A stretch of DNA of 64,000 bases from Phycisphaerae bacterium (GTDB lineage Bacteria; Planctomycetota; Phycisphaerae; UBA1845): contig JAJDDY010000087.1 of assembly GCA_029260075.1 (NCBI GenBank), positions 310,001 through 374,000 on the forward strand, written 5' to 3'. Below are positions 21,725-49,144 of this stretch, piece after piece (position 1 is the first letter of the stretch; each line of letters begins with the position of its first letter). The position numbers were made by a program, and so were the translations under genes. The notes under the pieces are model-generated. The model was not told where the DNA came from. It was given only the letters and a program-made list of their open reading frames with translations, and did not search any database.

Positions 21725-22675
21725 CTAATCCTTCTTCGATTTCTTGGGTCCGTGAAGCTGCTTGAAAAACTCGTTCTCGGTCGAGATGATCAATCGCGTA
21801 TTTGCGTCCATCGTCTTCTTGTAGGCTTCGATTTGGCGTAGGAACTGGTAGAATTCCGGGGACTTACCGAACGCCTTGGCGGTGATTTCGATGACCGCCG
21901 CGTCGCCCTCGCCACGGATGATCGCCGATCGTTCTTCCATGTCGCCTTCGATTTCGTCAAGCTCTTTGCGCGTCTGACCGAGGATGCGGTTCTTCTGCTC
22001 CTGTGCCTCCGATTCATACAAGCTGGCGATTCGCATGCGCTCCGATCGCATGCGCTCGTATACTTTTTCGCGAACGGATTCGATGTAGTTGATGCGCTTG
22101 ATGTGGATGGCGACCAGGCCCATACCGTACGTGTCTTCTAGGCCTTCACTGGCGAGCTCCATGATCTCCTTCTCGATTTTCTTCCGCCCGGTGACGACGC
22201 GTTCGCGGCGCTCTGACCAATCCTTTTCGAGCTCTTTGCTTTCGTAGATGAGCGCATCGTCGGTCGTGCGCACGGCGTCGATCAGGTTGTTCTTCGCGAT
22301 CACGCCACGAACGGCAGAGTCGACCAACTCGTCCAGTCGTCGTTGGCCATTCGCCTGTGAACCTACGGCTTTGATGAACTTGAGCGGATCCACAATTTTC
22401 CAGCGCGCCCACACGTCGATGTAGATACGCCGCTTGTCCTTCGTGGGCATGTTCTGCGGGTCACCGTCCCAGGGGAGCAGTCGTTTCTCCATCCGGTTGA
22501 CGTCTTGGACGAACGGTGTCTTCCAATGCGGTCCGGCTTCGGTCACCGCGCGAACCGGCTTGCCGAATTCGGTGATGATCGCCTGCTGTCCTTCCGGAAT
22601 AACATAGAGTCCGCCTTTGAGCACAGTGAGCGCTGCAATGACGAGCACGATGATGACTACTGTGGATTTCTTCAT
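21725..22675 (-). CDS. hflC: HflC-type SPFH membrane protein
   Basis: A 316-aa protein with one N-terminal helix (STVVIIVLVIAALTVLKGGLYV) and an SPFH/band 7 domain (about 25-190: VIPEGQQAIITEFGKPVRAVTEAGPHWKTPF). A charged coiled coil follows (about 190-260), then FGKSPEFYQFLRQIEAYKKTM and a basic tail. HflC forms with HflK a large cage around FtsH in the inner membrane that controls proteolysis. Its ATG overlaps the hflK stop by 4 nt. Confidence 0.94.
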   Translation of the reverse strand: MKKSTVVIIVLVIAALTVLKGGLYVIPEGQQAIITEFGKPVRAVTEAGPHWKTPFVQDVNRMEKRLLPWDGDPQNMPTKDKRRIYIDVWARWKIVDPLKFIKAVGSQANGQRRLDELVDSAVRGVIAKNNLIDAVRTTDDALIYESKELEKDWSERRERVVTGRKKIEKEIMELASEGLEDTYGMGLVAIHIKRINYIESVREKVYERMRSERMRIASLYESEAQEQKNRILGQTRKELDEIEGDMEERSAIIRGEGDAAVIEITAKAFGKSPEFYQFLRQIEAYKKTMDANTRLIISTENEFFKQLHGPKKSKKD

Positions 22676-23736
22676 TGTCCACCTCCCAAGCGACCGCGCT
22701 GGCGAGAACCACCGGTCGACAGGCTCGCGTCTGAAGGGTTGAGGTGCAGCAGTGGGAGCGTTCCGGTTATCGATTCGTCAATGACGGTCTTGTCGACCAC
22801 CTTCATCAGAATGTCCTCCATCCCCTCCAAGTACAGTCTCATCCTCGTGATCTCGGGGGCTTTCTCGTATTCCGCCAATTGGGCGAGAAACGCCGTGCCT
22901 TGTCCGGTGGCTTCTTTTTGCACACGCAGGGCGTAGCCCTCTGCTTCGGCGATGGTCCGATCGCGTCGACCGCGCGCCGCGGGGATCAACCGGTTTCGCT
23001 CACCCTTGGATTCGTTGACCACGCGTTCCTTGCTCTGCTTGGCCCGGTTCACCGCGTCGAAGGCGTCCTTAACCTTGTCGGGCGGTGTGGCCGACTGCAA
23101 CCTGACATTGACCACCCTGACGCCCGATTCAAAACCGTCGAGCATTTGCTGCATTTCTATTTTGGCGTCCTGGGCGATTTGTTCGCGACCGATGGTGATC
23201 ACCGAGTCGACGCTCACATCGCCGATGATGCGCCGCATCGCTGCTTCCGACACGTCGGCGATCAGATCGCGGGCGTTGGTGTTCGGATCACTTCTTCGAT
23301 CTCCGCCGACGCGGAACAGGAATAACTCTGGATCAATGATTTGGTATTGAACGACCCACTCCACGTGCGCCAGGTTCAAGTCCGCAGTCAACATGCGCGC
23401 GATCATTTTGTCCTGCGCGCCGGGGCGTGCGTATTCCGTCCTCCGACCGGCGACGAGCGTTCGGTATCCGAACTCGATGGACTGCACTCTCTCGACCGGA
23501 ACGGAGTAGGCGGTGTCGATCGGCCAGGGCAGTTTCAAATGCAAGCCCGGCGGCGCGATCTTCAACTTCTTGCCAAGGCGTAAGACTACCGCCCGGCTGT
23601 CGGCTTCGACTTTGTACAACGTCGAGCCGGAAGCCCACAGCAGCACAAGCAGCACGGCACCGGCCACGATGCGCCCGCTGTACAGCTTCCAGTAGTGTTG
23701 CAGCATGACCTGTAGGTCGTCGAGTTCCTGAGTCAT
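22672..23736 (-). CDS. hflK: HflK-type SPFH membrane protein
   Basis: A 354-aa partner of HflC. One helix lies near residues 20-40 (GRIVAGAVLLVLLWASGSTLY). The SPFH domain follows (SRAVVLRLGKKLKIAPPGLHLKLPWPID), with a coiled coil (about 225-290) and the conserved C-terminal GMEDILMKVVDKTVIDESITGTLPLLHLNP. The frame extends upstream to 23844, but ATG at 23736 gives a normal N-terminus (MTQELDDLQ). The order hflK-hflC with overlap is standard. FtsH is not encoded here. Confidence 0.93.
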   Translation of the reverse strand: MTQELDDLQVMLQHYWKLYSGRIVAGAVLLVLLWASGSTLYKVEADSRAVVLRLGKKLKIAPPGLHLKLPWPIDTAYSVPVERVQSIEFGYRTLVAGRRTEYARPGAQDKMIARMLTADLNLAHVEWVVQYQIIDPELFLFRVGGDRRSDPNTNARDLIADVSEAAMRRIIGDVSVDSVITIGREQIAQDAKIEMQQMLDGFESGVRVVNVRLQSATPPDKVKDAFDAVNRAKQSKERVVNESKGERNRLIPAARGRRDRTIAEAEGYALRVQKEATGQGTAFLAQLAEYEKAPEITRMRLYLEGMEDILMKVVDKTVIDESITGTLPLLHLNPSDASLSTGGSRQRGRLGGGQ

Positions 23737-24117
23737 AGCGTACCTTCTCGTTCTAATGCTTCCGACCGGGGAGGCGATCGTCACACGATCGCGCCCGGGC
23801 GAAGTTTTCCGCAGTAGCCGGCGCCGCAGACGACGCTGTCGCAAGACGTACGCCAGCCGGGAACTGCCTCACGCGGAGTTCTAATTGGTTTGGGTCATAG
23901 GGACAAGGGGCACGATACGCTCGTTGTTGCGACACGTCGCCGTTCTCCTATCCCAACCAACTGTTGAACAAGGCAGGTATTCAAGCGCGTTACCGCAAAC
24001 CCGCCCGTGGTAACGAGCTGCGTCCGCATCAAGAGGGAGAAATCGCCAATGGATCACCGGCTGGAAGCCGATGCCACACTTCTTCGACAGGCTGTTCGGC
24101 GTCAGCGGTCGTCTGGG
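23737..24117. repeat. Spacer upstream of hflK containing a full 138-bp element
   Basis: The stretch 23737-23956 has no convincing gene and should hold the hflK promoter. 23957-24094 is copy 2 of the 138-bp element. Confidence 0.6.
23957..24094 (+). repeat. 138-bp element with terminal inverted repeats, copy 2
   Basis: Ends are CCAACTGTTGAAC and CTTCGACAGGCTG. Length is exactly 138 bp as in copies 1 and 3. The interior AAACCCGCCCGTGGTAACGAG and the right-half GGATCACCGGCTGG hairpin are collinear with them. Confidence 0.85.
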
Positions 24118-24918
24118 CTACCGAACGTCAGCAGGATCGCAGAGCTCGCTGTCGCGGAGGTCTGATACGAACATGTGGCCTGGGTCATGGGTTATGGCGA
24201 AGTTGAGCTTGGCGCGGATGAGGGCCTCCATGGGGGTTACGCCGCAGGCCCAGAAGACGGGGATTTCATCGGCGTGAATCGCCACCGGGTCACCGTAATC
24301 GGGTCGATCCAGATCGTTGATACCGATACTGAGCGGATCACCCATGTGGACGGGCTCGCCGTGGACGCGGGGGTAGGCCCGGGTAATGCGGACGGCCTCC
24401 TCGGCTTGGCTATGCGTCATGGGTCGCATAGAGACGATCATCGGACCGGTAAACGGCCGAGCCGGGTGGCAGTCGATGGTGGTGCGGTACATGGGCACGT
24501 TGCACGATTGCTCAATGTGGCGGACCGGCAGAGCAGCCCGGCGAAGGGCGGCGTCGAAGGTAAACGAACAACCAATCAGAAACGCCACGCAATCGCCAGA
24601 CCAGACTGACTCGACGGACGTGGGGTTGTCAAGGCATTGCCCGTCGCGAAAAATTCGATAGCGCGGCAGGTCGGTTCGAAGGTCGGCGCCGGGCGCCAAC
24701 AACGTCGGCTCGAAGGAACCCGGCGACAGCTCTTCCAGAAGCGGGCAGGGTTTGGGATTCAACCGGCAAAACGTCGCGAACGCTTTCGCATCGTTCTGCG
24801 ACAGCACGACGAGGTTGGCTTGCGTAAACCCGGCGGCCATTCCCGCCGTGGGCTCCGTCCACTGGCCACTACGACACATCGTTCGAACTTGTAGACCGGT
24901 CAATGTTTCAAGATTCAT
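24118..24918 (-). CDS. DUF1445 putative hydro-lyase (D-glutamate cyclase N-terminal family)
   Basis: A 266-aa soluble protein of the YcsI/DUF1445 family. Diagnostic segments are TAGMAAGFTQANLVVL, NPKPCPLLEE, GADLRTDLPRYR, FLIGCSFTFD, NVPMYRTTIDC, FTGPMIVSMRPM and VFWACGVTPMEA. In human DGLUCY a domain of this family is fused in front of the D-glutamate cyclase domain. Here that second domain is in the upstream neighbour, whose stop overlaps this ATG by one base (TAATG), which suggests coupled translation and joint action. Family members are annotated as hydro-lyases, without a firm reaction. Confidence 0.92.
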   Translation of the reverse strand: MNLETLTGLQVRTMCRSGQWTEPTAGMAAGFTQANLVVLSQNDAKAFATFCRLNPKPCPLLEELSPGSFEPTLLAPGADLRTDLPRYRIFRDGQCLDNPTSVESVWSGDCVAFLIGCSFTFDAALRRAALPVRHIEQSCNVPMYRTTIDCHPARPFTGPMIVSMRPMTHSQAEEAVRITRAYPRVHGEPVHMGDPLSIGINDLDRPDYGDPVAIHADEIPVFWACGVTPMEALIRAKLNFAITHDPGHMFVSDLRDSELCDPADVR

Positions 24919-26783
24919 TACGATCGAAGCCCGGCGCCTGACAGATCGTGAAGAGAACGGCCGAGCCCGTCCGCATCCAAACCGGAGAGTCGCCCGATGA
25001 GTACGGCGCTAAGCAGGTTCATCGGAAACTCGGCTACGCCGCCCGGCGACCCTGCCGACACAGACCGGATGCGCTCCACTTGGCCGTTGATGTTGACGCA
25101 TATCGCGCCGTCAACCAACCACGCACCCCGGTCGACCGGTTGCGACGGGGAGACCCAAAGCGTGCGACCTTGGTGTCTCCGCGCCAGCGCGCGCAGGCGT
25201 GGATCATCGAACGGCAGGATAAGCACATCGTCGGGTCGCTGGTTCATAAAGACTCGACTCTTGATGCGCACGTATTCCGAGATGGACTGGTGTCGGTCGA
25301 GGTGTTCTTCCGCAATGTTGAGCAGCACGGCGATGTGCGGTCGGAAGTGAACAACCGACTCGAGCTGGAAACTCGAGACCGCGAGGGCTATGTCGTCCGG
25401 TGGTCCCGCGGTGGCGACGCTGCCCTGCGGTGGTGACATGATGCTGTCATCGGTCGAGTCGTGCCCGGTGAGCAAGTCCGACAGGGGTCGCCCGCGATTG
25501 CCGCCGATCGCCAGGGGTTGAACTGACGACTCGAAAATCCGTTGCAGCAATTCGACGGTCGAGCGTTTGCCGATCGTTCCGGTCACCGCGATCAGAGACG
25601 GCGCTGGCGATCCCACACTTGCCGGCGTGGTTTGGGTCTCGGTCGCGATTTGATAGGCCAATTCCAATTCGCTGATCACATGAATACCATGGCGATGAAT
25701 CGCGTCGAGGATAGGCGTATTCACCGCCACGCCGGGGCTGGCTACGACGAGATCGCACGATTCCAGGAACCGGATGGTGTGGCCGCCCGTTTCGACGCCG
25801 GCCATTTCCATTCCCGGATCAACGGTCACCGAGCCCTTGTCGGAGATCAACACGCGATGTCCGTGGTTGATCAAGAGCTTGGCGGCTGCCCGCCCGGTCA
25901 GACCATAGCCAAGGATGCCGACGGTAAGGCAACCACTTCGCTCGAGCGGCGACGGTGCGATGTGCCGGCGAATCTGTTCGAGCATGCGCAGCGTTGAGGA
26001 AAGCGGCTGCCCGTCCACGGTCGGCTCGCGTCGATGGGTGATACCGTCGACCGCCCCGCCAACAGTTACGATTTGCTCCAAATCCCTGGCGACGTCGTCC
26101 GCCGACGGCAGCAAGTCGCGACCGGCGAGAACAGAAAGCGCACCGGCGAGCCCCATCGCCCCCCAGTTGGATACGCCGGCGACGATGCAAAAATCGGTGG
26201 CGACGGTCGTGGCGATTTCTGCGCCGTTGTTCACGGTCGCGAGGGCGTCTGTGAACACTTTGCCCATGCCGATTTCGTTACCGCCGTCGCCGATGCCGAT
26301 GGTGGTCAAGCCGCGGTGCGTGCCTTCGAGAAACAGGTCATCGAGCGCGGCGGTCGTGTGCGTTATGTCAACGCCACGCAGGTTTCGGTACTTGCCGTCC
26401 TGCCCGCGTCCGGCGCGCTCGACGGCCACAAGGTGCGTCGGCCCGGCGTGACCAAGATAATCCGCGACGTCACAGATCGGACTCAGCCCGAGCGCACTCA
26501 GCAGCGGTTTGTTGGACTCATCGGTGATGTAGTCGACCTCGATCCCCATTCGACGAAGGGCTTCGCCGAGAATTTTGGAACCGGGTGGGCCGTCCGTCTC
26601 ACCGGACGATGCTTCGACGATGTGGAATCCGGTCACAATGCCGACCCGACGAGCCAAGCGGAGCGATTGAGCAGCCAGGCGAAGTTGATCGGGCAGCGCC
26701 AGCGCAAAGATGTTTCGCCCACCGGGGTCGGTGGCGATGAGGTTTTCGATGGAGGTGATCTGTGCGTTCATTGTCTTGGCCAT
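24918..26783 (-). CDS. D-glutamate cyclase (DUF4392) fused to a truncated MurD-like ligase
   Basis: A 621-aa fusion. Residues about 1-270 match the D-glutamate cyclase domain of human DGLUCY: THLVAVERAGRGQDGKYRN, LDDLFLEGTHRG, IGIGDGGNEIGMGKV and ATDFCIVAGVSNWGAMGLA. This domain interconverts D-glutamate and 5-oxo-D-proline. Residues about 285-621 are MurD-like: Rossmann motif VGILGYGLTGRAAAKLL, VASPGVAVNTPIL, SELELAY, VTGTIGKRST, SSFQLE and NIAEEHLDRH. It stops just after the segment equal to NALAAL...L in MurD, so the third domain is missing. The nucleotide loop has Arg after GK where Ser/Thr is expected. ATG at 26783 is preferred over the upstream TTG. Confidence 0.9.
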   Translation of the reverse strand: MAKTMNAQITSIENLIATDPGGRNIFALALPDQLRLAAQSLRLARRVGIVTGFHIVEASSGETDGPPGSKILGEALRRMGIEVDYITDESNKPLLSALGLSPICDVADYLGHAGPTHLVAVERAGRGQDGKYRNLRGVDITHTTAALDDLFLEGTHRGLTTIGIGDGGNEIGMGKVFTDALATVNNGAEIATTVATDFCIVAGVSNWGAMGLAGALSVLAGRDLLPSADDVARDLEQIVTVGGAVDGITHRREPTVDGQPLSSTLRMLEQIRRHIAPSPLERSGCLTVGILGYGLTGRAAAKLLINHGHRVLISDKGSVTVDPGMEMAGVETGGHTIRFLESCDLVVASPGVAVNTPILDAIHRHGIHVISELELAYQIATETQTTPASVGSPAPSLIAVTGTIGKRSTVELLQRIFESSVQPLAIGGNRGRPLSDLLTGHDSTDDSIMSPPQGSVATAGPPDDIALAVSSFQLESVVHFRPHIAVLLNIAEEHLDRHQSISEYVRIKSRVFMNQRPDDVLILPFDDPRLRALARRHQGRTLWVSPSQPVDRGAWLVDGAICVNINGQVERIRSVSAGSPGGVAEFPMNLLSAVLIGRLSGLDADGLGRSLHDLSGAGLRS

Positions 26784-27010
26784 CGTCCGCAATAAGCGGA
26801 TTCGGCGGTCCGTTCGACTTCGCCCTCAACTATCGTATGTCGTACAGTGCACGGACCATCTTCTGTCGAGTGGCTCATCGCTTCGGGATGGGCTACCCGG
26901 TCAGATGCGTGGGCATCACGAAAGCATAACGATTCGACTCCCCCACTGCCAAAGCCATGGGCCACCAGGCTCCCGTACTCCGCCGACGACACGACGGATT
27001 CGCATGGCGA
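26784..27010. repeat. Spacer with half of the GGGGGAGTCGAATC palindrome
   Basis: 26930-26966 matches the right half of the inverted repeat at 15658-15738 (GATTCGACTCCCCC followed by GCCATGGGCCACC). It separates the oxoprolinase gene from the cyclase fusion on the same strand. Confidence 0.6.
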
Positions 27011-30000
27011 TCACTCTTCGCAAGTTGGCGCTTGGCCCCATCCACCGCCGCCGGGTGTTTCGATGATCAAGTGATCACCGGGCATGGCTGAGATGAGGGT
27101 AATGGGCGGAAGTTCTTTGAACTTCTCGGCGTCGGCACGGCGCAGCGTGTTCTTACCGGTCGCGCCGGGGGCGCCACCGCACAGACCGTACGGTCTTGTC
27201 GTCCGCCGTTGCGAGATGATCGACACCGCAAGCGGCTTTAAGAATAAGAACTCGCGCCGAACACCACAACCGCCCTGATGACGACCCCTACCCCCAGACC
27301 CGCGACGGATTTCGAAGCGAATCAAACGAACCGGAACGCGCGACTCGAGCACTTCGGGATCGGTCATTCGCGTGTTGGTCATGTGTGTATGCACGGCATC
27401 GGCGCCGTCGAAACCGGGACCAGCGCCCGCGCCGCCACAGATTGTTTCGTAGTAACCAAAGTGCTCATCGCCCATCAGTAGATTGTTCATCGTGCCCTGA
27501 CTGGCGGCTACGAGTTGCAAAGCGCCGAACACGGTATCGACAACGCGCTGCGACGTCTCGACGTTGCCACCGACGACGGCGGGACAATGGGAAGGATCGG
27601 CGCCGCGCGGCGGATTGAGAAGACATTCCGGGATCACAATCTCAATCGGAGCCAACACGCCGCTGTTCAGTGGGATATTCTCGCCGATCAAGCAGCGGAA
27701 GCAATACAAGACGGCACTGGTCACGATGGCTCGGTTGGCGTTCAGGTTGCCCGAAAGCACATCGCCGGTTCCGGAGAAATCGAGCCGGGCGCAGCCATCC
27801 TTCACATCGACGGACAGTTTGATCGGTGACCCGTCGTCCAGACGATCCTCGAAGCTGTACACGCCGTCGCCGAGACGGCGCAATGCGTCGCGCATCTTGC
27901 GCTCGGCTGCCTGTTGAATGTGCATCATGTAGGCGTGGACCACATCAACGCCGTATCGCTCGATCATGGCGTCGAGTTCGCGCACTCCGGTTTGATTGGC
28001 AGCCACCTGCGCTGCGACGTCGGCCAGGTTTTCTTCCGGCGATCGTGAGGGATGGTCGCCACCGGTCAGTAGGTCGCGCAGCGCCGCGTGCCGGGTCTGT
28101 CCATTTTCCATCCACCGGAAAGCGTGAATGACCACACCCTCTTCCGCGAGGGATTGGGAATCGGGGGGCATCGAGCCTGGTGTCTTGCCGCCGATCTCGG
28201 CGTGGTGGGCCCTACTGGCTACGAAAAAACGAAGGTGTTTGCCCGTCTCGTCGAACACGGGTGTCACGACCGTGACATCGTTGAGGTGCGATCCGCCTCG
28301 GTAGGGGTCGTTCGTGATCAGCACATCCCCCGCGTTCATCGCGCCAACGTCGTCGATGAGCGTCTTGACACATTCGCTCATGGCTCCGAGATGAACGGGA
28401 ATGTGGGGGGCGTTGACCACGAGGTCGCCGCTTGGTGTGAAAATAGCGCAGGAAAAATCGAGTCGGTCTTTGACGTTGACCGAGAGCGCCGTTCGCCGCA
28501 ACGTCACGCCCATCTGCTCTGCGGCTGCGGAAAACTGATGGTTGAACAACTCGAGTTGGATCGGGTCAACCGCTGTGGATACGCGCTCTGAGTCCGTTTC
28601 GACGGTGCGATCTTCGAGAATAACAGCCCCGCCCGGCGTCGCCACCGCAGTCCACCCGGGTTCGACGATAATGGTGCTTGTCGGTTCAATCACCACGGCC
28701 GGGCCGGAAAGGGTGCGGCCAGCCGTAAATTCGTCGCGCATCACAAGGGGCACGCTGTGTCGCCGGCCGTCGATCACGAGCTCGGTGGTTCGGTTAGGCG
28801 CCGTAACTTTCGAGCGATAAAATTCAACCTGTTCTATGTCACGCCCACCGCCGGAGTCGGACAGTTGAACGCGGGCCGCACGCACTTCGATCGCCCGACC
28901 GTCGTGTCGATACCCGTACAAACGCTCGTGTTGTTGTTCGAACCGCGCGGGCGCATCGGCGAGCGGATCGGCGGACACGCTGATCGGCGTCGATTGGCCG
29001 ACGTAACACAAGTCCACGGTTCGAACCGGCACCTTCATCACAGCCTCATCCACACCGTCGCCGCGCAAGGCCGAGAGAACTTCTTTTTCAAGCGACGCCC
29101 ATACGGACGCGAGGTTCGTTTCGATATGGCCATCGAAAATGATGGAGACGCTGCATTGCGCAATGCGTTGGACGTTGGCTACGGCGATGCCGACGGCGCT
29201 GAGCACGCCGGCCATGGGATCGCAGACGACGTTATTGATGCCCAGTAGGCGCGCGACGGCGCACGCGTGTTGCGCTCCGGCGCCGCCGAATGTGGTGAGC
29301 ACGTAATCGCGAACGTCCACACCTTTCGCGAGAGATATCCGCCGGATGGCAGCCGCCATCTTGGCGTTGGCGATGCGGATGAACCCGTCTGCGACTTCGA
29401 GCGCAGGCGTTGTCGTCGTTGAAGACTCATTGATGCGCTCGGTCAGCGCGTCCAGCAGTCGGTGTACCACGTCGCGATCGAGCGGGAACGGAAATTGGTC
29501 GGGCACTATACGTCCTAAGACTAGATTCATGTCGGTGACGGTCAGCGGTCCACCGCGACCGTAACACGCCGGTCCCGGATCGGCGCCCGCGCTGTGCGGT
29601 CCGACGGTGAGCATTTGACCGTCGAAGGCGCAGATGCTGCCACCGCCGGCGGCCACGGTTTCGACCGCCAACATGGGTGTCATCACCCTGACACCCGCCT
29701 GAACCGTCTCGTACAGGTACTCGAACGAATCGGGTGGGGCGTCGACGCGACACACGTCTGTGCTCGTACCGCCCATATCGAACCCGATCGTCCGATCGAA
29801 ACCCGCGCGACGCGCTACGTGAGCGCAACCGATCACGCCGCCGGCCGGACCACTGAGAATCGTATCCTTCCCCCGAACGTGCCGGGCTGATACCAGACCG
29901 CCGTTGCTGGTCATCATCATCAGCCGCGGCGTCACGGCGCTCGGCGACCGCGAGGCGCCGGTTTTCTGTTCTTCTCTGGCACCGGCTTCCAGCCGGTGTG

Positions 30001-30907
30001 TCAGAACATCGCGCAACGAAGATACGTAGTCGAGAATGACGGGTGCGAGGTAGGCGTCGACAACGGTGGTATCGCCGCGCGGTACGATTTTTTGCATACG
30101 CGCGACGTCGGACGATACGGACACATGTGCGAAACCGACGGAACGCGCGACACGCGACACGACCTGTTCGTGGTCGGCGTTGACGGGGGCGTGCAGTAGA
30201 CAAATGGCTAACGATTCGATGCCGTCGTGGCGAATGGCCAGCAGTTGACGACGGACTGCGGATTCGTCCGGACGGCGCAGAACTTCGCCGGTGGCGGTGA
30301 GGCGCTCATCGATTTCGACGACGCGTTCGGCAAGCTCGTCGCGCGTCTTGATAGCCAGGCCGAACAGGTCGGGGCGATCCTGATAGCCGATACGCAGAAT
30401 GTCGGCGAAGCCCGTCGTCGTCACCAGCGCGACACGCGCGCCCTTGCGTTCCAAGAGGGCGTTGGTGGCGCGAGTAGTGCCCAAGCGCACTTCGACCGGA
30501 CCGATGGGTTGATCGAGCCCGATGCCCATTAGGTTTCGGATGGCCAGGATGGGTGCATCTTCGCCGGACGACAACTCGTACGCTGTGTCTCCGGGGACGA
30601 AGTCGTTGATGGGTTCGGTTAACATGAGGCGACCGCGCGGGCCGCCGGAACTTCGGACGAGGGATGAGCCGATCGATTGTCCGTCGCGCCCGAGTGCGGT
30701 CAGGCGATAGCCGGTCCACAATCCATCGGGTTCGTTGAGGCGGCGGGTGTCGCGGATTTCGTTCGTCGTCGATTCGGCTTCGATCAGACCGCGAACGACA
30801 CCGCTGCTTAAGACCTTGCGCGTATGCCAGATTCCCTGCGGCGACTGGGCGACTACGTCGGTAAAGGTGCCGCCGACGTCGATATAAAAATGCCAGATCG
30901 GTGTCAT
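27011..30907 (-). CDS. Hydantoinase/5-oxoprolinase, fused A and B subunits
   Basis: A 1298-aa ATP-dependent amidohydrolase of the OPLAH size class. The A half (about 1-720) has the actin-like nucleotide motif [59 protein letters not shown] and [10 protein letters not shown]. The B half (about 765-1290) has [41 protein letters not shown] and a C-terminal GGGGWG. 5-oxoprolinase opens 5-oxoproline to glutamate; hydantoinases open related rings. Downstream D-glutamate cyclase genes favour 5-oxoproline. Residues about 302-309 (HRLEAGA) are encoded by an ACCGGCT hairpin repeat sitting in frame before TSNGGL. Confidence 0.9.
29981..29997 (-). repeat. ACCGGCT hairpin inside the oxoprolinase coding sequence
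   Basis: A perfect ACCGGCT-GGA-AGCCGGT copy on the minus strand, translated as part of THRLEAGA. The following about 20 codons ([13 protein letters not shown]) look like unconstrained linker, so the repeat seems to have landed in a tolerant loop. Confidence 0.75.
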
Positions 30908-31009: not shown

Positions 31010-34000
31010 TCAACCGGTGCGACCGTGACATTGTTTGTATTTCTTGCCGCTACCGCAGGGACACGGATCGTTTCTCTTGACCCTGGGTTGTTCGCGCCGA
31101 ATCGTCTCGACCTTGGCTTCGGAGCCTTGGGCGCGCATGGCTGACTGTTGATCAGCCGCTGCAGAAGAGAATCCACCACCTGTTGAATCCGCGTGGCTTA
31201 ACGACATGGGCGCGCCGCCGGCCGGCGCCGGTCCGGATTCACCCGCATCACCGCCTTGGACCTTGAAGATGATGTCGGTCACGCGGGCTGCGATTCGGGC
31301 CCACATCTGCGCGAACAGGTCGCGACCCTCGATCGCGAACTGACTTTGCGGGTGGGATTGATCGCCACCGAGCGGGCGTTGCTGAACGGCCGTTTTGAGG
31401 TGGTCCATCTCCAGCAGATGGTCTTTCCACGCTTGGTCATAGAGTCTGAGCAGGATGTATTGTTCGAGTCGCGTGAGTTCCCACCGCAGCATTTCGCGTC
31501 CCTGGTCCATCAGCGCATGGCCGATTGGTCCGTCGTGCTCGTCGAATCGCTGCTGATTCCACGCGAACCCAAAGCGCGACTTGGCCCATTCGACCGCAGC
31601 TTCTTCGTCCTTGCCGGAAATGTTGTCGTCGATGGTTTTCTGAAGTCCACCGTCGAACGCCTTCTCGCTGAGCGAAAGCAGTTCGCTCTTCACGTCCGCT
31701 ACGGCTTTGCCCTGCACATCTTCCAACGTCCAGCCTGCGTCGTACTTGTGGTTGGCCCACTCGGCGACGCTCTGGGCTGCGGCGGCTTGATCCGTGGTCT
31801 CAGAACCCAGGGCACGTTGAACGCACCATTCAACGGGGAACGTAACCTCGCGTAGACCGTAAGCGTCTCGGACGCGCTGATCGAGCAGCTTGCTGATGTC
31901 GCTTTGCGGTGTCTCGATGACTTCCTCATCTTCGAGGGCGATGCTGAACTTGGTTCGAGCCCACTCCGCCAGAGCGCGGTAGCGATAATGAGCATCGAGG
32001 TACATCGAGATGCCGTCCAAATCCAAAGCAGCGTAGTGCGATTGCGCCGCGGCGACGAGGGTTTCCTCGATCTCGTCGGGTTCCATCTTGCGCATTTGGT
32101 TTTGCGTGATGGACACCTTGTAGAGTCGGGTCACCCATCGAAGCAGACCGCCCACGTCCCACTTGTTGGGCGGTTCTTCCGGGTCGATGTACTCACCTAT
32201 GGACGTACGAACCTGGTCGAGGGCTTCGTCGATCGCTTTGCCTCGGATGCTCGTCGTAGCTGATTCCAAGTCGTCGCAGTTGATGCCTTCTTCTTCGATG
32301 GGCAAGTCCAGATTGGCGAGACACCATCGGGCGATGCAGCCGCGGACGTAGTTACCGCCGAGGAATTGATCCAGCGTGGTTTCGATGACGTTTTGCATCG
32401 CATCGAAGATCAATCCGGGGAGGTCGCGCTCCTCCAAAATTCGTTGCCGAGCGGCGTAGAATTCCTTGCGTTGAAAGTCCATCGGCTCGTCCCATTCGAG
32501 CAGATGTTTACGCATGGAGAAGTTTCGTTCCTCGACCTTTCGTTGGGCGCGTTCGATTCCTTTCGTCAGCCGCTTGTCTTCCAGGCTGGTTCCCTCAGAG
32601 AATCCGAGCTTGTCCATCATCTTCAGCATCCAATCCGGCATGAAGAGTTTGAGCAGGTCGTCCTCAAGGGAAAGCGAAAACCGCGACGAGCCCGGATCGC
32701 CTTGACGACCCGATCGACCGCGCAACTGATTGTCGATACGTCTCGATTCGTGTCGCTCGGTGCCGATGATGTGCAACCCACATGGCACGTTGAGCGGACA
32801 CACCGTGCGCCCCATCGCCGGAAAACGCGGATCGAGCTTGGGTTTGAAACAGTGGGCGCAGTTGGTGGCTGGGTCGTACTCGTCGCAGCGTATACAACAC
32901 TTCGTGATTCCAGCCGGATAGAGTTTGTTCGATTCGACCCCATCGGGGAGGGTCTCCGGCGTCTTGCAGATTGGGAAGACGACTTCGGGTCCGAGTTTGA
33001 TGTCCGTCCCGCGACCGGCCATGTTCGTGGCGATGGTGACGTGACCGCGCGGCGTCTTGTCGCCGCCGGACGAGGGGAAGGATGTGAACCCCGCCTTGGC
33101 GACGATGTCGGCTTCGCGCGAGTGGTTCTTGGCGTTGAGCACTTCGTGATCGATACCGTAACGCTTGGTGAGCAGGGCGGAGAGCTTCTCGGAGTTCTCG
33201 ACACTGGTCGTACCGACGAGGACGGGTCGACCCCTAGCCAGATCGCCCATGGATTCGTCGAACACTTCCAGCATGAATTGGATGACCTTGGTGTCGCCGA
33301 CATTGGCTGAGTTGAATTGGCGAAGGGCTTCGTCGATACGGCTGGTATCTTGACCCTGTTTGGCGCAGATGGGTTTCAACGCTTTGAAAATGTCGGCAAG
33401 CAGAAACGGGTCCGCCATGCGCCCGCGGCGATGAATCCCATGGACTTCCTCGACGATGGCTTCGTATTTCTGGTCCGTGTCGCGATACATCGTATCGTTG
33501 TGGTCGACGCGGTTGATCGGCCGGTTGGTGGGGATTTCGACAACGTCCAGCTTGTAGATTTTGTCGAACTCATTCGCCTCGGTCATAGCCGTACCGGTCA
33601 TGCCCGCCTTGAGCGAATAGAGCTTGATGAAGTTTTGGATGGTGATCGTCGCCAGCGTTTGCGTTTCTTCCTTGACCCTGACGTGCTCTTTGGCTTCGAT
33701 GGCCTGGTGGAGACCGTCCGACCATTGGCGGCCGTGCATTAGACGGCCGGTGAAGGGATCGACGATAATAATCTGCCCGTCTTGGACGACATAATCCTTG
33801 TCGCGACTGTAGACCTTGTGTGCTCGGATGGCGTTTTCGATTAGATGAGGCCATTCCATGTTGGCGCCGGCGTAGAGGCTTCCCATATCGAGAAGATCCT
33901 GGGCGATTGACACACCCTCGTGCGTCAATCCAACCTGCCGGCGTTCGGTCTGCACGATGTAGAAGCGACGGTATTGCTCGGACGATGGCATCTTGAGGAT

Positions 34001-35245
34001 GTCGTTCTCGAAGATTTGTACGGCTTCCACCTGATCGTCGGTGAGAAAGTCAGCCCCGAGCGTTGCGGCTGTCTCGTCGTCGCCGTCGTGCTCATCGTCA
34101 CCCGTCGACGGGTCGTTTGTGGCGGGTTGCGCTGACGCGGACTCGCGGTAGCCAAGAATTTTCATGGCGTCGTCGAGCTTGGGAATATTCTTGGCGTCGC
34201 CGTCGTATCGGGCCACGGTGGGTTTCACCTTGCGATCCCAGACGGCTTGTTTCCGCGCCAGTTCCTCCGCCACTTTGTTCGCGCGCGGGTACCGGGTCAC
34301 ATCATCACGCGCCGGACCGGATATGATCAACGGCGTACGGGCTTCGTCGATCAAGATCGAATCAACCTCGTCGACGATGACGTAGTTCAACGGGCCTTGA
34401 ACCTGCTCTTCGAGCTGGGTCTTCATATTGTCGCGCAAGTAGTCGAACCCGAATTCGGCATTGGTGCCAAACGTAATATCGCAGCCGTACGCGGCGTGGC
34501 GGATGCCCTCGCGCCCGCCCGGGTCGACCTGAGACTGAATATAGCCCACGCTGATTCCGACCAAAGCAAAGATCGGCACGGCGAACTCCGCGTCGCGGCG
34601 CACGAGGTAGTCATTGACCGTGATGACGTGAATTTTCCGACCGCAGAGGTAGTTCACAAACGCCGCGAGGTGACAGACGATAGTCTTGCCCTCGCCGGTC
34701 TTCATCTCGGCGATCGTGCCCTCGAACAACACGCGTCCGCCGATGAGTTGGCAATCGAAGTGGCGGTGATTCTGCGCGCGACGGGACGCTTCTCGCAGGA
34801 CGGCAAACGCTTCGCCGAACAGACCTTCCTTGTCGAGCGTGTCGATTACGGCGCGGTTGCGCTTTCGGTAGTCGATTCGATAGTACTCGTCGACGCGAAG
34901 AGCTGGGGTGAGTGAATCCCACCATTCGTTGAGCGGCGCCATCGCTTCGTGCGCCTGCTCTCGCAGTCGGGCGCTATGCTCCAAGAGGTCCTGCGACAAT
35001 TCCAAGCCGATCGCTTGCCGGCGCGCGTCTTGCTCTTCGGGCGGAAGATCGCCGACTTTGTCTTCCGACAGGCGGCGTTCGAAACGTTCGTCGTAGTCCC
35101 CGCGCAGTCGATCCTCGTGCTCGCCGATGGCGCCGATCTGTCGACGGTATACCTTCAGCAGTCGATCGTTCCGCGAACCGAACAGCTTCCTTGGGAGGCG
35201 CTTGGCCCTTCCGTACATGGATGAAACGGTGTCAACAATGGACAT
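31010..35245 (-). CDS. secA: Protein translocase ATPase SecA, oversized
   Basis: A 1411-aa motor ATPase that drives export through SecYEG (E. coli SecA is 901 aa). The core is intact: Walker A MKTGEGKT (about 180), [13 protein letters not shown] (about 295), [13 protein letters not shown] (about 745) and [30 protein letters not shown] (about 815-845). The C-terminal metal motif is [14 protein letters not shown]. Three expansions are seen: an acidic loop near 365-395, a Cys-rich insert near 760-815 (CCIRC, CAHC, then C...C) inside nucleotide domain 2, and an extended helical region of about 300 residues before the C-terminus. Confidence 0.95.
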
Positions 35246-47217: not shown

Positions 47218-47695
47218 CGGTTGGTGACTCCGAGTTTTCTGGGCGTGTTTACACAGCGGCCGCACAGAACGGACGTACGGGGTGCTGCCTGGGTCGTGAA
47301 GCCAGTCTTCGAGTACGCGTGTGCGGACGCAATGCGCCGTCCGTGATACGCGGCACGGTCGGAGAGTTATACGCGCGCGCCAAGAGGCCTGTCAACATCT
47401 AACAGGCTGTCCGACATGGCTGGTCTTCTAGTAAGAGGCGGCGCCGACGTGGTCTGACCCGGCACAACAAGGCGAGAGCGTCAATGGATCACCGGCTGGA
47501 AGCTTGTGCGACACATGTTCAACTAGGCTGCTGATATACTGTGTTCGACCAGTCTTCAGAGGCGAGACCGGCACGGCGCGTCCCGGTGGCCGGTCGGGTT
47601 GTACTGCTGTTCTTGGCATTTACAATTTGCAGTTGAGCGGCGACTTACGTTGCCGGTTTGGCGACGCATTGGCCTCTCACGCACCGGCAGGGTGG
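47218..47695. other. Divergent spacer with a degenerate 138-bp element
   Basis: 47403-47530 is a shortened (128 bp) copy of the terminal-inverted-repeat element: CAGGCTGTCCGAC at the left, GTTCAACTAGGCTG at the right, and a diverged ACCGGCT hairpin at 47491-47507. The frame that continues into murD crosses this copy, so those codons are not called. Confidence 0.65.
47403..47530 (+). repeat. Degenerate 138-bp element, copy 4
   Basis: Same ends as the full copies with about 10 bp lost internally and several substitutions. The hairpin right arm is mutated (AGCTTGT). Confidence 0.7.
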
Positions 47696-49144
47696 ATGGG
47701 CCACGATAGTCGCGCTGGCGGGGCGAGCAAACTGCGGCGAACTACTTTGTCTGATTTCACACCACAGCCAATCGATCTCGGAGACGTTTCCTCGGGTGCG
47801 CTCGCCGGCCGGCGCGTGCTCGTCATCGGGCTGGGCCGGTTCGGCGGTGGGCTTGGTGTCACCAAATGGTTGGTCGACGAGGGTGCCCGGGTCACGATCA
47901 CAGATCAGGCGGACGAGGCGTCGCTTGCGGAATCCATCGCGGCGCTGAACGACCCATCGGTGACGCTCCGTCTGGGCGGACATGATCCTGCCGATCTGGA
48001 CGGTATCGAGCTGGCTGTAGTGAACCCGGCTGTCAACAAAGACCGGTCGGAGTTTTTTGGGGAACTCTGCCAAAGGGACATTCCCTGGACCACCGAAATG
48101 AACCTGCTGCTGGGGCGATGTCGCGGCGGGGTCGTTGCGGTTACGGGGACGTATGGCAAGAGCACGACGTGTGCGATGCTCGCCCATGTGCTCGAAACCT
48201 ATCGCAACGATCCGTGTGTGGAGGACGCTGGCTATCGCGACGTTCACCTCGGCGGCAACATCGGTCGATCCCTTCTGCCCGATCTTAGCCACATCGGCCC
48301 CGACGACGTGGTTGTTCTTGAGATATCCAACGCGCAGCTTGAAGACCTGCCGCGCATTGACTGGCGACCGCGCATCGCGATGATCACCAACCTGTCCCCG
48401 CACCATCTTGATCGCTACAACAGCTACGCCGAATACGTCCAAACCAAGATCAACATACTCGGTCAGCCAGCCACGACGGAACGGTTGATCGCCGGTCCGC
48501 TTGACGAGGAGGCTGAGCGCCTTGTCACTCAACGTCTCGTGGAAACGACGGTGAAGCGCATCGCGGTCGCGTCGGTCGACGAACCGATCGAGTTATGTAT
48601 TCCCGGTGTTCACCATCAGCAGAACGCGGCGTGTGTCCTGACGGTGTGCGCACAACTCGGCCTGCGGCTGGACGCAGTCCGCCGGGCGCTGTCGACGTTT
48701 CGCGGGTTACCCCATCGCCTCGAACTTGTCCGCATGCTGGACGGCGTATCGTATTACGATGACGCCAAGTCCACGTCTCCCTCGGCCGTGCTCACCTCCT
48801 TGTCCTCGCTCGATCGACCGATTGTGGCCATTGTGGGCGGCCAGCGAAAGAATGTACCGCTCGATGCCCTGGGTGCATCATTATTGAAATCTTGTCGAGA
48901 GGTGATCTGTATTGGTGAATCCGGTCCGGACGTTGCGCGGGCTATGTCGGGAGCGTTGGTATACGATACCGCGTGCGTGGTGACAGAGGCGGAGGGGCTT
49001 GAAGAGGCTGTGGTTCTTGCGCGCGAACGTGCGCGGCCGGGTGATGTGGTGTTGTTTTCCTCGGGCGCGCCGAGCTTCGATCGGTATGCCAATTTCGTGG
49101 AACGCGGCAAACACTTCGTGCGGCTGGTTCATGGTTTGGAGTAG
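47696..49144 (+). CDS. murD: UDP-N-acetylmuramoylalanine--D-glutamate ligase
   Basis: A 482-aa Mur ligase that adds D-glutamate to UDP-MurNAc-L-Ala in the cytoplasm. All three domains are present: Rossmann-like VLVIGLGRFGGGLGV (about 37-51), ATP loop VTGTYGKSTTCAML, NLSPHHLDRYNSYAEYVQTK, STFRGLPHRLELV and DDAKSTSPSAVL. The C-terminal FSSGAPSFDRYANFVERGKHF is the MurD signature. It lies outside a dcw cluster. ATG at 47696 is chosen because upstream codons lie in a repeat; a TTG at 47747 (LSDFTPQ) is also possible. It contrasts with the truncated MurD-like module at 24918-26783. Confidence 0.92.
   Translation: MGHDSRAGGASKLRRTTLSDFTPQPIDLGDVSSGALAGRRVLVIGLGRFGGGLGVTKWLVDEGARVTITDQADEASLAESIAALNDPSVTLRLGGHDPADLDGIELAVVNPAVNKDRSEFFGELCQRDIPWTTEMNLLLGRCRGGVVAVTGTYGKSTTCAMLAHVLETYRNDPCVEDAGYRDVHLGGNIGRSLLPDLSHIGPDDVVVLEISNAQLEDLPRIDWRPRIAMITNLSPHHLDRYNSYAEYVQTKINILGQPATTERLIAGPLDEEAERLVTQRLVETTVKRIAVASVDEPIELCIPGVHHQQNAACVLTVCAQLGLRLDAVRRALSTFRGLPHRLELVRMLDGVSYYDDAKSTSPSAVLTSLSSLDRPIVAIVGGQRKNVPLDALGASLLKSCREVICIGESGPDVARAMSGALVYDTACVVTEAEGLEEAVVLARERARPGDVVLFSSGAPSFDRYANFVERGKHFVRLVHGLE

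Follow-up and report, generated by a model that had tools for sequence, protein, structure and literature searches.

D-Glutamate is synthesized chiefly for the stem peptide of peptidoglycan, and its disposal in bacteria has been little studied. The closest described system is mammalian DGLUCY (C14orf159 / 9030617O03Rik), in which a DUF1445 and a DUF4392 domain occur in one protein; in the accessible part of the report, the mouse protein has D-glutamate cyclase activity and no L-glutamate is produced (PMC5339696). Split homologues of human DGLUCY have already been tabulated in gut bacteria (6 split, according to the accessible part of PMC11580864). Here, we analyzed a block of three minus-strand genes in a 64,000-nucleotide stretch of DNA (hereafter the window) from a Phycisphaerae bacterium (assembly GCA_029260075.1, contig JAJDDY010000087.1, positions 310,001 to 374,000; genome of 4.9 Mb, 97% complete). 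The block encodes a single-chain hydantoinase A/B (HYD), a DUF4392 domain joined to a MurD-like module (FUS) and a DUF1445 protein. Unlike DGLUCY, it keeps the two shared domains in two genes (or, in two relatives, in a fusion of reverse order), and it adds the MurD-like module and an oxoprolinase-type gene. We regard the block as a new form of D-glutamate cyclase system. The original prediction, made from the window alone, knew of no described system with this fusion, and we likewise found no description of a cyclase-Mur fusion among the titles and opening lines of abstracts listed in open-literature searches, with subscription journals outside the scope.

Two further systems bear on the comparison. 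The DUF4392 protein TON_0340 of Thermococcus onnurineus (PDB 4FC5, 5GL2-4) shares its fold and six metal ligands with FUS; unlike FUS, it has a single domain and is described, in the accessible part of its report, which contains no cyclase assay, as a probable Mn-dependent phosphatase (PMC5132392). MurD2/MurL of Xanthomonas handles D-glutamate in a racemase-free manner with a divergent MurD, which the accessible part of that report presents as an active ligase, unlike the module of FUS (PMC8788868). We propose, with middling confidence, that the block is a D-glutamate/5-oxoproline unit in which a pseudo-MurD module on the cyclase serves for sensing or placing.

The fusion protein and its pseudo-MurD module

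Pfam searches and an open reading frame check placed the three genes where the original prediction had them, on one strand and with the last two overlapping by one base. HYD occupies 27011-30907 (minus strand; 1298 residues). The longest frame of FUS (24918-26792, minus strand, 624 residues) opens with a TTG and lies 218 bases from HYD; the ATG at 26771 (Met8) is the more likely start because the Met8 column is invariant among 14 aligned fusions, so that the gene probably spans 24918-26771. The DUF1445 gene (24118-24918, minus strand, 266 residues) starts inside the FUS stop codon (TAATG) and matches PF07286 with 220 bits, a family named 'D-Glu_cyclase' in Pfam and 'putative hydro-lyase' in NCBIfam. 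The DUF4392/GLUCM-like_C domain of FUS (PF14336; residues 15-275, at 25968-26750 on the minus strand or 335968-336750 of contig C86) scores 244.3 bits against a cut-off of 27.9. The two proteins had been claimed to correspond to the halves of human DGLUCY, and they are indeed homologues of both its domains.

A fold model of FUS (mean predicted local distance difference test score, pLDDT, 76.8; predicted template modelling score, pTM, 0.65; built on a seven-sequence alignment) was compared with chains ranked by Foldseek. Residues 15-281 of the model superpose on TON_0340 with a Z of 33.5, and E65, D67, E125, D169, E173 and D260 align with the six acidic metal ligands defined on that protein in the accessible part of PMC5132392. 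All six positions are invariant across the 14 aligned fusions. By homology to mammalian DGLUCY, we infer that DUF4392 and DUF1445 turn D-glutamate into 5-oxoproline.

The MurD-like module (residues 289-624; 24921-25928, minus strand) contains MurD-like_N (residues 292-373) and Mur_ligase_M (residues 403-546). It resembles MurD (PDB 3LK7, 2JFG) in the N and central domains only: modelled residues 283-624 superpose on MurD residues 4-309 (3LK7) with a Z of 32.5, and other MurD entries among the matches listed give Z values of 26.0-28.9. The C-terminal domain of MurD (residues 299-437), which binds D-glutamate according to the accessible part of PMC3527612, is missing, with the positions D317, T321, K348, S415 and F422 absent in 16/16 fusions. 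On the MurD equivalog model TIGR01087, FUS reaches 167.7 bits, under the cut-off of 211.95.

The active site is altered as well. The Walker A motif of FUS reads GTIGKRST; R410 replaces Ser116, and A471 replaces Glu157. We take S116 to be the Walker A residue and E157 the Mg ligand of MurD, and the roles of N268 and R37 are likewise presumed. We compared 16 fusions with 17 canonical rows, namely E. coli MurD, the MurD of the window and 15 planctomycete rows taken to be MurD. Among the fusions, S116 has become Arg in 15/16, E157 Ala in 15/16, I139 Arg or Lys in 16/16 and N268 Phe in 13/16. Four of 21 canonical rows (L019, L023, L029, L030) were dropped for exceeding 560 residues or lacking G[TS]xGK[ST], a filter that guarantees a Ser/Thr following the P-loop Lys in every one of the 17 rows kept. 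Over all 21 rows, that Ser/Thr is found in 20, Glu at position 157 in 18 and Lys at position 115 in 18, and the exceptions L019, L029 and L030 are probably cases in which the longest frame taken was not the MurD frame.

Other MurD residues are retained by the fusions: N138, S159 and Q162 in 16/16, K115, H183 and the carbamylated-Lys position K198 in 15/16, and N271 in 13/16. R555, W558, M516 and N517 are conserved in 16/16 and only in the module. Across 91 family pairs, mean identity is 0.62 and 0.60 in the two Mur domains vs 0.69 in the cyclase; the module therefore appears to be constrained, though less than the cyclase. In the eight closest pairs, the Mur domains have a nonsynonymous rate (dN) of 0.19-0.32 and a synonymous rate (dS) of at least 1.2, the latter high or saturated, so that the constraint is only indicative.

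Because the C domain, the Walker A Ser/Thr and the Mg-ligand Glu are all lost, no ligation by the module is to be expected, and therefore only a regulatory or structural role remains for the Mur part. Judged by sequence and model, the module is a conserved pseudo-MurD and no ligase. That the module ligates, or channels substrate towards the wall, was rejected on the missing C domain and the altered Walker A and Mg residues. The original prediction let the MurD-like part tie flux to wall synthesis; a sensing or scaffold role survives from that idea, and incorporation of D-glutamate does not, given the missing C domain and the altered ATP/Mg site. A single search of the open literature found nothing on a Mur ligase as a pseudoenzyme, and we know of no earlier pseudo-Mur ligase.

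The module might still be active with ATP, converting the gamma-carboxylate of D-glutamate into an acyl phosphate and driving cyclisation in this way. Gamma-glutamyl phosphate cyclises readily, and the P-loop Lys and the carbamylated-Lys position are kept in 15/16 fusions. The phosphatase activity of a DUF4392 protein, reported in the accessible part of PMC5132392, also speaks for this reading. The change of the Walker A Ser to Arg and of the Mg-ligand Glu to Ala in 15/16, together with the missing C domain in 16/16, makes this reading highly improbable, and it is unlikely that the module burns ATP.

The window genome also encodes a full-length canonical MurD (47504-49144, plus strand), with a GTYGKSTT P-loop, the Mur C domain and 282 bits, over the model cut-off. 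It rules out that the module is the only MurD of the genome; recent duplication of this gene as the origin of the module was also discarded, the two being only 26% identical. The contig of the canonical MurD differs from that of the other Mur-type matches (C38), and the gene apparently lies outside the main wall-gene cluster. The N domain of the module gives weak Pfam matches to NAD-type Rossmann families and may act as such a domain.

Conservation of the fusion and its linkage to oxoprolinases

The family of the window genome (51 genomes, in an order of 114) was searched for the fusion. PF14336 occurs in 18/114 genomes of the order, 17 of them in the family; the eighteenth (G430) has a distant cyclase in a 414-residue frame and no full-length match. 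One family gene is cut by a contig end (G452), and the remaining 16 comprise 14 fusions, in the window genome and 13 further ones, and two proteins in which the cyclase is joined directly to DUF1445 (G465, G466). A sample of 392 genomes from the phylum yielded one other full-length fusion among the matches listed (G044). A scan of 84,980 species genomes, of which the best 80 loci were analyzed, gave six full-length fusions; five match genomes already counted (L089 nearly, as G438), and one, from a Desulfarculaceae bin (L086), is new. As full-length fusions recur in 13 further family genomes, G044 and L086, a fusion by chance is excluded. We also ruled out an assembly or frameshift artefact, because all 16 fusions stop before the C domain and the next gene of the window begins in the FUS stop codon. 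The original prediction had called for a look at fusion and neighbour conservation in planctomycetes; both proved conserved, and the absence in relatives that would have spoken against it did not occur.

A rapid tree, computed without bootstrap, covered 99 cyclase domains; it omitted L104 and L120, which lie on the contigs of G164 and G018, and L084, L085, L087, L088 and L089, which are copies of rows included. One starred clade (Shimodaira-Hasegawa-like approximate likelihood ratio test, SH-aLRT, 98) holds the 16 fusions together with both direct cyclase-DUF1445 proteins and L090, a cyclase that stands alone in a Chloroflexi bin. On this tree, three changes of the fusion label are required, of which the starred branches force just two. 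The pattern would follow from one gain and two losses, and a second gain may have occurred. Nearly all of the genomes are drafts or metagenome-assembled, and the host assignments of contigs L086 and L090 are to be treated cautiously.

DUF4392 and DUF1445 travel together. Within the family, PF14336 and PF07286 each occur in 17/51 genomes and both in 16 (Fisher p 3.9e-11; this and the other co-occurrence p values ignore relatedness), the exceptions being G452 and G453, the latter 63% complete. DUF1445 adjoins or is fused to the cyclase in 12/16 testable family genomes, a count that leaves out G452; in the other four (G438, G450, G480, G481), it is found elsewhere in the genome. Genome-wide, DUF1445 was present in 7/8 genomes tried, including G044 and that of L086, and it was not found in the eighth, the Omnitrophota genome of L139.

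HYD is the third member of the group. It adjoins FUS in 14/16 testable family genomes (G441 left out); the two genes overlap by 4 bases in G438, G451, G455 and G470 and are 6 and 46 bases apart in G471 and G480. Hydantoinase_B is found in 17/17 cyclase genomes vs 11/34 of the other family genomes (p 1.9e-6). Beyond the family, 25 of the best 80 DUF4392 loci have DUF1445 near or fused, three of them being family fusions; HYD stands beside DUF4392 in just three of the 80, all of them family fusions. Five loci (L117, L123, L127, L129, L156) have PxpA, PxpB and PxpC in addition to DUF1445; in a sixth, PxpB and PxpC are present and DUF1445 is absent. In L117, from a Spirochaetales bin, DUF4392 is fused to a PxpB-type domain (PF02682, 195 bits). 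These groups resemble the block in that an ATP-dependent 5-oxoprolinase accompanies the cyclase pair and differ from it in having no Mur module. We take PxpABC to be non-homologous to HYD, and the recurrence of two non-homologous oxoprolinase types beside the same pair is the strongest argument for a role of the pair in handling 5-oxoproline. According to the accessible part of PMC8453981, PxpABC does not resemble the related carboxylases, and the main text of a 2026 PxpABC paper mentions neither DUF1445 nor D-glutamate. The linkage data, namely the DUF1445/DUF4392 co-occurrence, the adjacency of HYD and the PxpABC groups, support the D-glutamate/5-oxoproline link drawn in the original prediction.

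HYD itself has the features of OPLAH-type 5-oxoprolinases. Hydant_A_N, Hydantoinase_A and Hydantoinase_B (658 bits) stand in one chain in A-B order, as the original prediction of a fused hydantoinase/5-oxoprolinase type had it. The ATP motifs are DVGGTFTD (residues 10-17), DMGGTSTD (377-384) and GADPGP (441-446), and the Asp-His-Asp-His metal site (D817, H874, D877, H901) was assigned by alignment with caprolactamase chains. HYD shares these motifs and this site, defined for the superfamily in the accessible part of PMC8453981, with CapAB, N-methylhydantoinase and OPLAH-type 5-oxoprolinases, and the same source describes the fused A-B order in eukaryotic oxoprolinases. The closest solved chain is N-methylhydantoinase (E 5e-121), followed by CapA (1e-53) and CapB (3e-39), and HYD is distant from all of these; neither an OPLAH structure nor an OPLAH-specific model is among the matches listed. 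Over 91% of its length, HYD shares about 46% identity with single-chain Sinorhizobium proteins, one of them annotated as hydantoinase B/oxoprolinase family. A plasmid search gave mostly unannotated matches, with no experimentally typed 5-oxoprolinase among those listed. Around residues 40-115 of HYD, 25 plasmid relatives among the matches listed align only from residue 90 or 117, and several family HYD proteins align from residue 5 on. We infer that HYD reopens 5-oxoproline to glutamate with ATP, a substrate assignment that is predicted.

It is unlikely, in our view, that the substrate of HYD is an unrelated lactam or hydantoin and that the genes are neighbours for other reasons, which would leave D-glutamate to the cyclase pair alone. 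The best-matching solved chain does carry the name N-methylhydantoinase, two genomes (G450 and G454) have FUS and HYD on separate contigs, and 11/34 family genomes have Hydantoinase_B without the cyclase. HYD, which carries the sole Hydantoinase_B match of the window genome, nevertheless belongs to a family present in all 17 cyclase genomes; the adjacency, the 4-base overlaps in four genomes and the company that DUF4392 keeps with the non-homologous PxpABC also count against this reading.

Role of the block in D-glutamate economy

In the proposed unit, FUS (through DUF4392) and DUF1445 would convert D-glutamate into 5-oxoproline, and HYD, a 5-oxoprolinase-type lactamase, would use ATP to convert 5-oxoproline into glutamate. 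The pseudo-MurD module would bind a MurD-type ligand (UDP-N-acetylmuramoyl-L-alanine, UDP-MurNAc-L-Ala, or another anion) without turnover; once bound, it would adjust or place the cyclase, and D-glutamate would be drained when the wall pathway has no need of it. Such a drain would make sense in racemase-free cells, which are unable to return D-glutamate to L-glutamate directly by that enzyme. A narrower form of the proposal, in which the module is an allosteric UDP-MurNAc-L-Ala sensor and acts as a valve that halts D-glutamate breakdown while the wall pathway waits, appears doubtful.

Several observations weigh against the proposal, some of which have been given above (the family genomes with Hydantoinase_B and no cyclase) or are set out with the alternatives below. 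All block activities, including that of the cyclase, are predicted from sequence, and the assayed DUF4392 protein TON_0340 is a weak Mn-dependent phosphatase (PMC5132392, accessible part). In 53 of the best 80 loci, neither DUF1445 nor an oxoprolinase was present in the DNA examined, some of the contigs being short. Binding of UDP-MurNAc-L-Ala is only a guess, because the UDP-site residues are partly lost (R37 is Gly or Ala in 14/16 fusions, and T36 is variable). Furthermore, if the cyclase and HYD act on the same 5-oxo-D-proline enantiomer, D-glutamate comes back with ATP spent, which is futile; a net salvage to L-glutamate would therefore need 5-oxo-D-proline to be inverted or to meet some other fate. 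DUF1445 is a candidate for this inversion step. The original prediction, which is partly supported overall, overlooked this stereochemical gap.

Our search of the open literature found no paper on a D-specific 5-oxoprolinase. Three of the PxpABC loci form a spirochaete gene group of the order DUF1445-DUF4392-PxpB-PxpA-PxpC (L117:5795-9684, L127:8742-12811, L129:7783-11822). PxpA of these three begins with NCDIGERG, vs a D-GE[SG] form in L123 and L156, and the NCDIGERG proteins possibly represent a D-specific 5-oxoprolinase branch.

The racemase context allows for a reversed direction. Glutamate racemase over the TIGR00067 cut-off is found in 11/51 family genomes, in 0/17 with the cyclase vs 11/34 without it (p 0.009 by genome and 0.0013 by genus, both uncorrected for relatedness, which is a further reservation about the proposal). 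The window genome, with its canonical MurD, has neither a glutamate racemase nor a match to the wider Asp/Glu racemase family. DUF4392 and DUF1445 might invert 5-oxo-L-proline derived from L-glutamate or L-glutamine, with HYD opening 5-oxo-D-proline to D-glutamate and the module reporting wall demand. The canonical MurD presumably needs D-glutamate, and ATP-driven ring opening could pull such an uphill route. Against this supply stands mouse DGLUCY, which consumes D-glutamate and forms no L-glutamate in the accessible part of PMC5339696. Asp/Glu racemase family proteins occur in 14/51 family genomes, including the cyclase genomes G438 and G450, in which they are not glutamate racemase by the equivalog model. 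As many as 23/51 family genomes lack both racemase and cyclase, and therefore neither a drain nor a supply is forced. Another weak point is that D-amino-acid-transaminase-like proteins are present in 50/51 genomes (234 bits in the window genome), none over the cut-off; a transaminase source of D-glutamate is possible, and the same model also gives sub-cut-off matches in 11/14 control genomes. We consider the supply route distinctly improbable.

A purely structural role of the module is a more serious, if still tentative, alternative. The Mur part would then be a scaffold that brings the cyclase to DUF1445, with ligand binding lost or irrelevant. G465 and G466, nested in the same clade, show that the module is dispensable, having DUF1445 fused to the cyclase in its place; such a direct fusion is also present at L163, a Clostridia locus. 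G044 is the one fusion without K115, H183 and K198, so that further active-site residues have been lost there. On the other hand, K115, N138, S159, H183 and K198 are kept in 15-16 of the 16 fusions, which would be needless for a mere scaffold, and the conservation of R555, W558, M516 and N517 suggests a selected surface or pocket.

Under the proposed D-glutamate/5-oxoproline unit, a seemingly dead version of the enzyme that consumes D-glutamate has become attached to the one presumed to destroy it, and a family has retained this arrangement. The fusion suggests an unstudied link between the use and the destruction of D-glutamate, and if the module senses a wall precursor, the breakdown of a D-amino acid would be tied by direct feedback to the demand of the wall. 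Additionally, the association of DUF1445 and DUF4392 with two unrelated oxoprolinases offers a testable handle on the division of labour in human DGLUCY.

Related arrangements and neighbouring genes

DUF4392 joined straight to DUF1445, in the reverse of the human DGLUCY order, was observed at L063:3518-5155 and L064:1525-3222, both family members, and at L163:4262-5965, a Clostridia bin far away on the cyclase tree. At two loci, a stand-alone DUF4392 gene has a MurD-like ligase gene about 1.4 kb downstream: L139:12279-13724 (481 residues, Omnitrophota), where Pfam finds the C domain in the ligase, and L131:12089-13525 (478 residues, Rokubacteria), where it does not.

Within the window, two adjacent SPFH/Band 7 genes, perhaps an HflK/HflC-like pair, lie downstream of the block (21725-23844, minus strand). 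Upstream of it is SecA (31010-35245, minus strand), which adjoins HYD in three relatives too.

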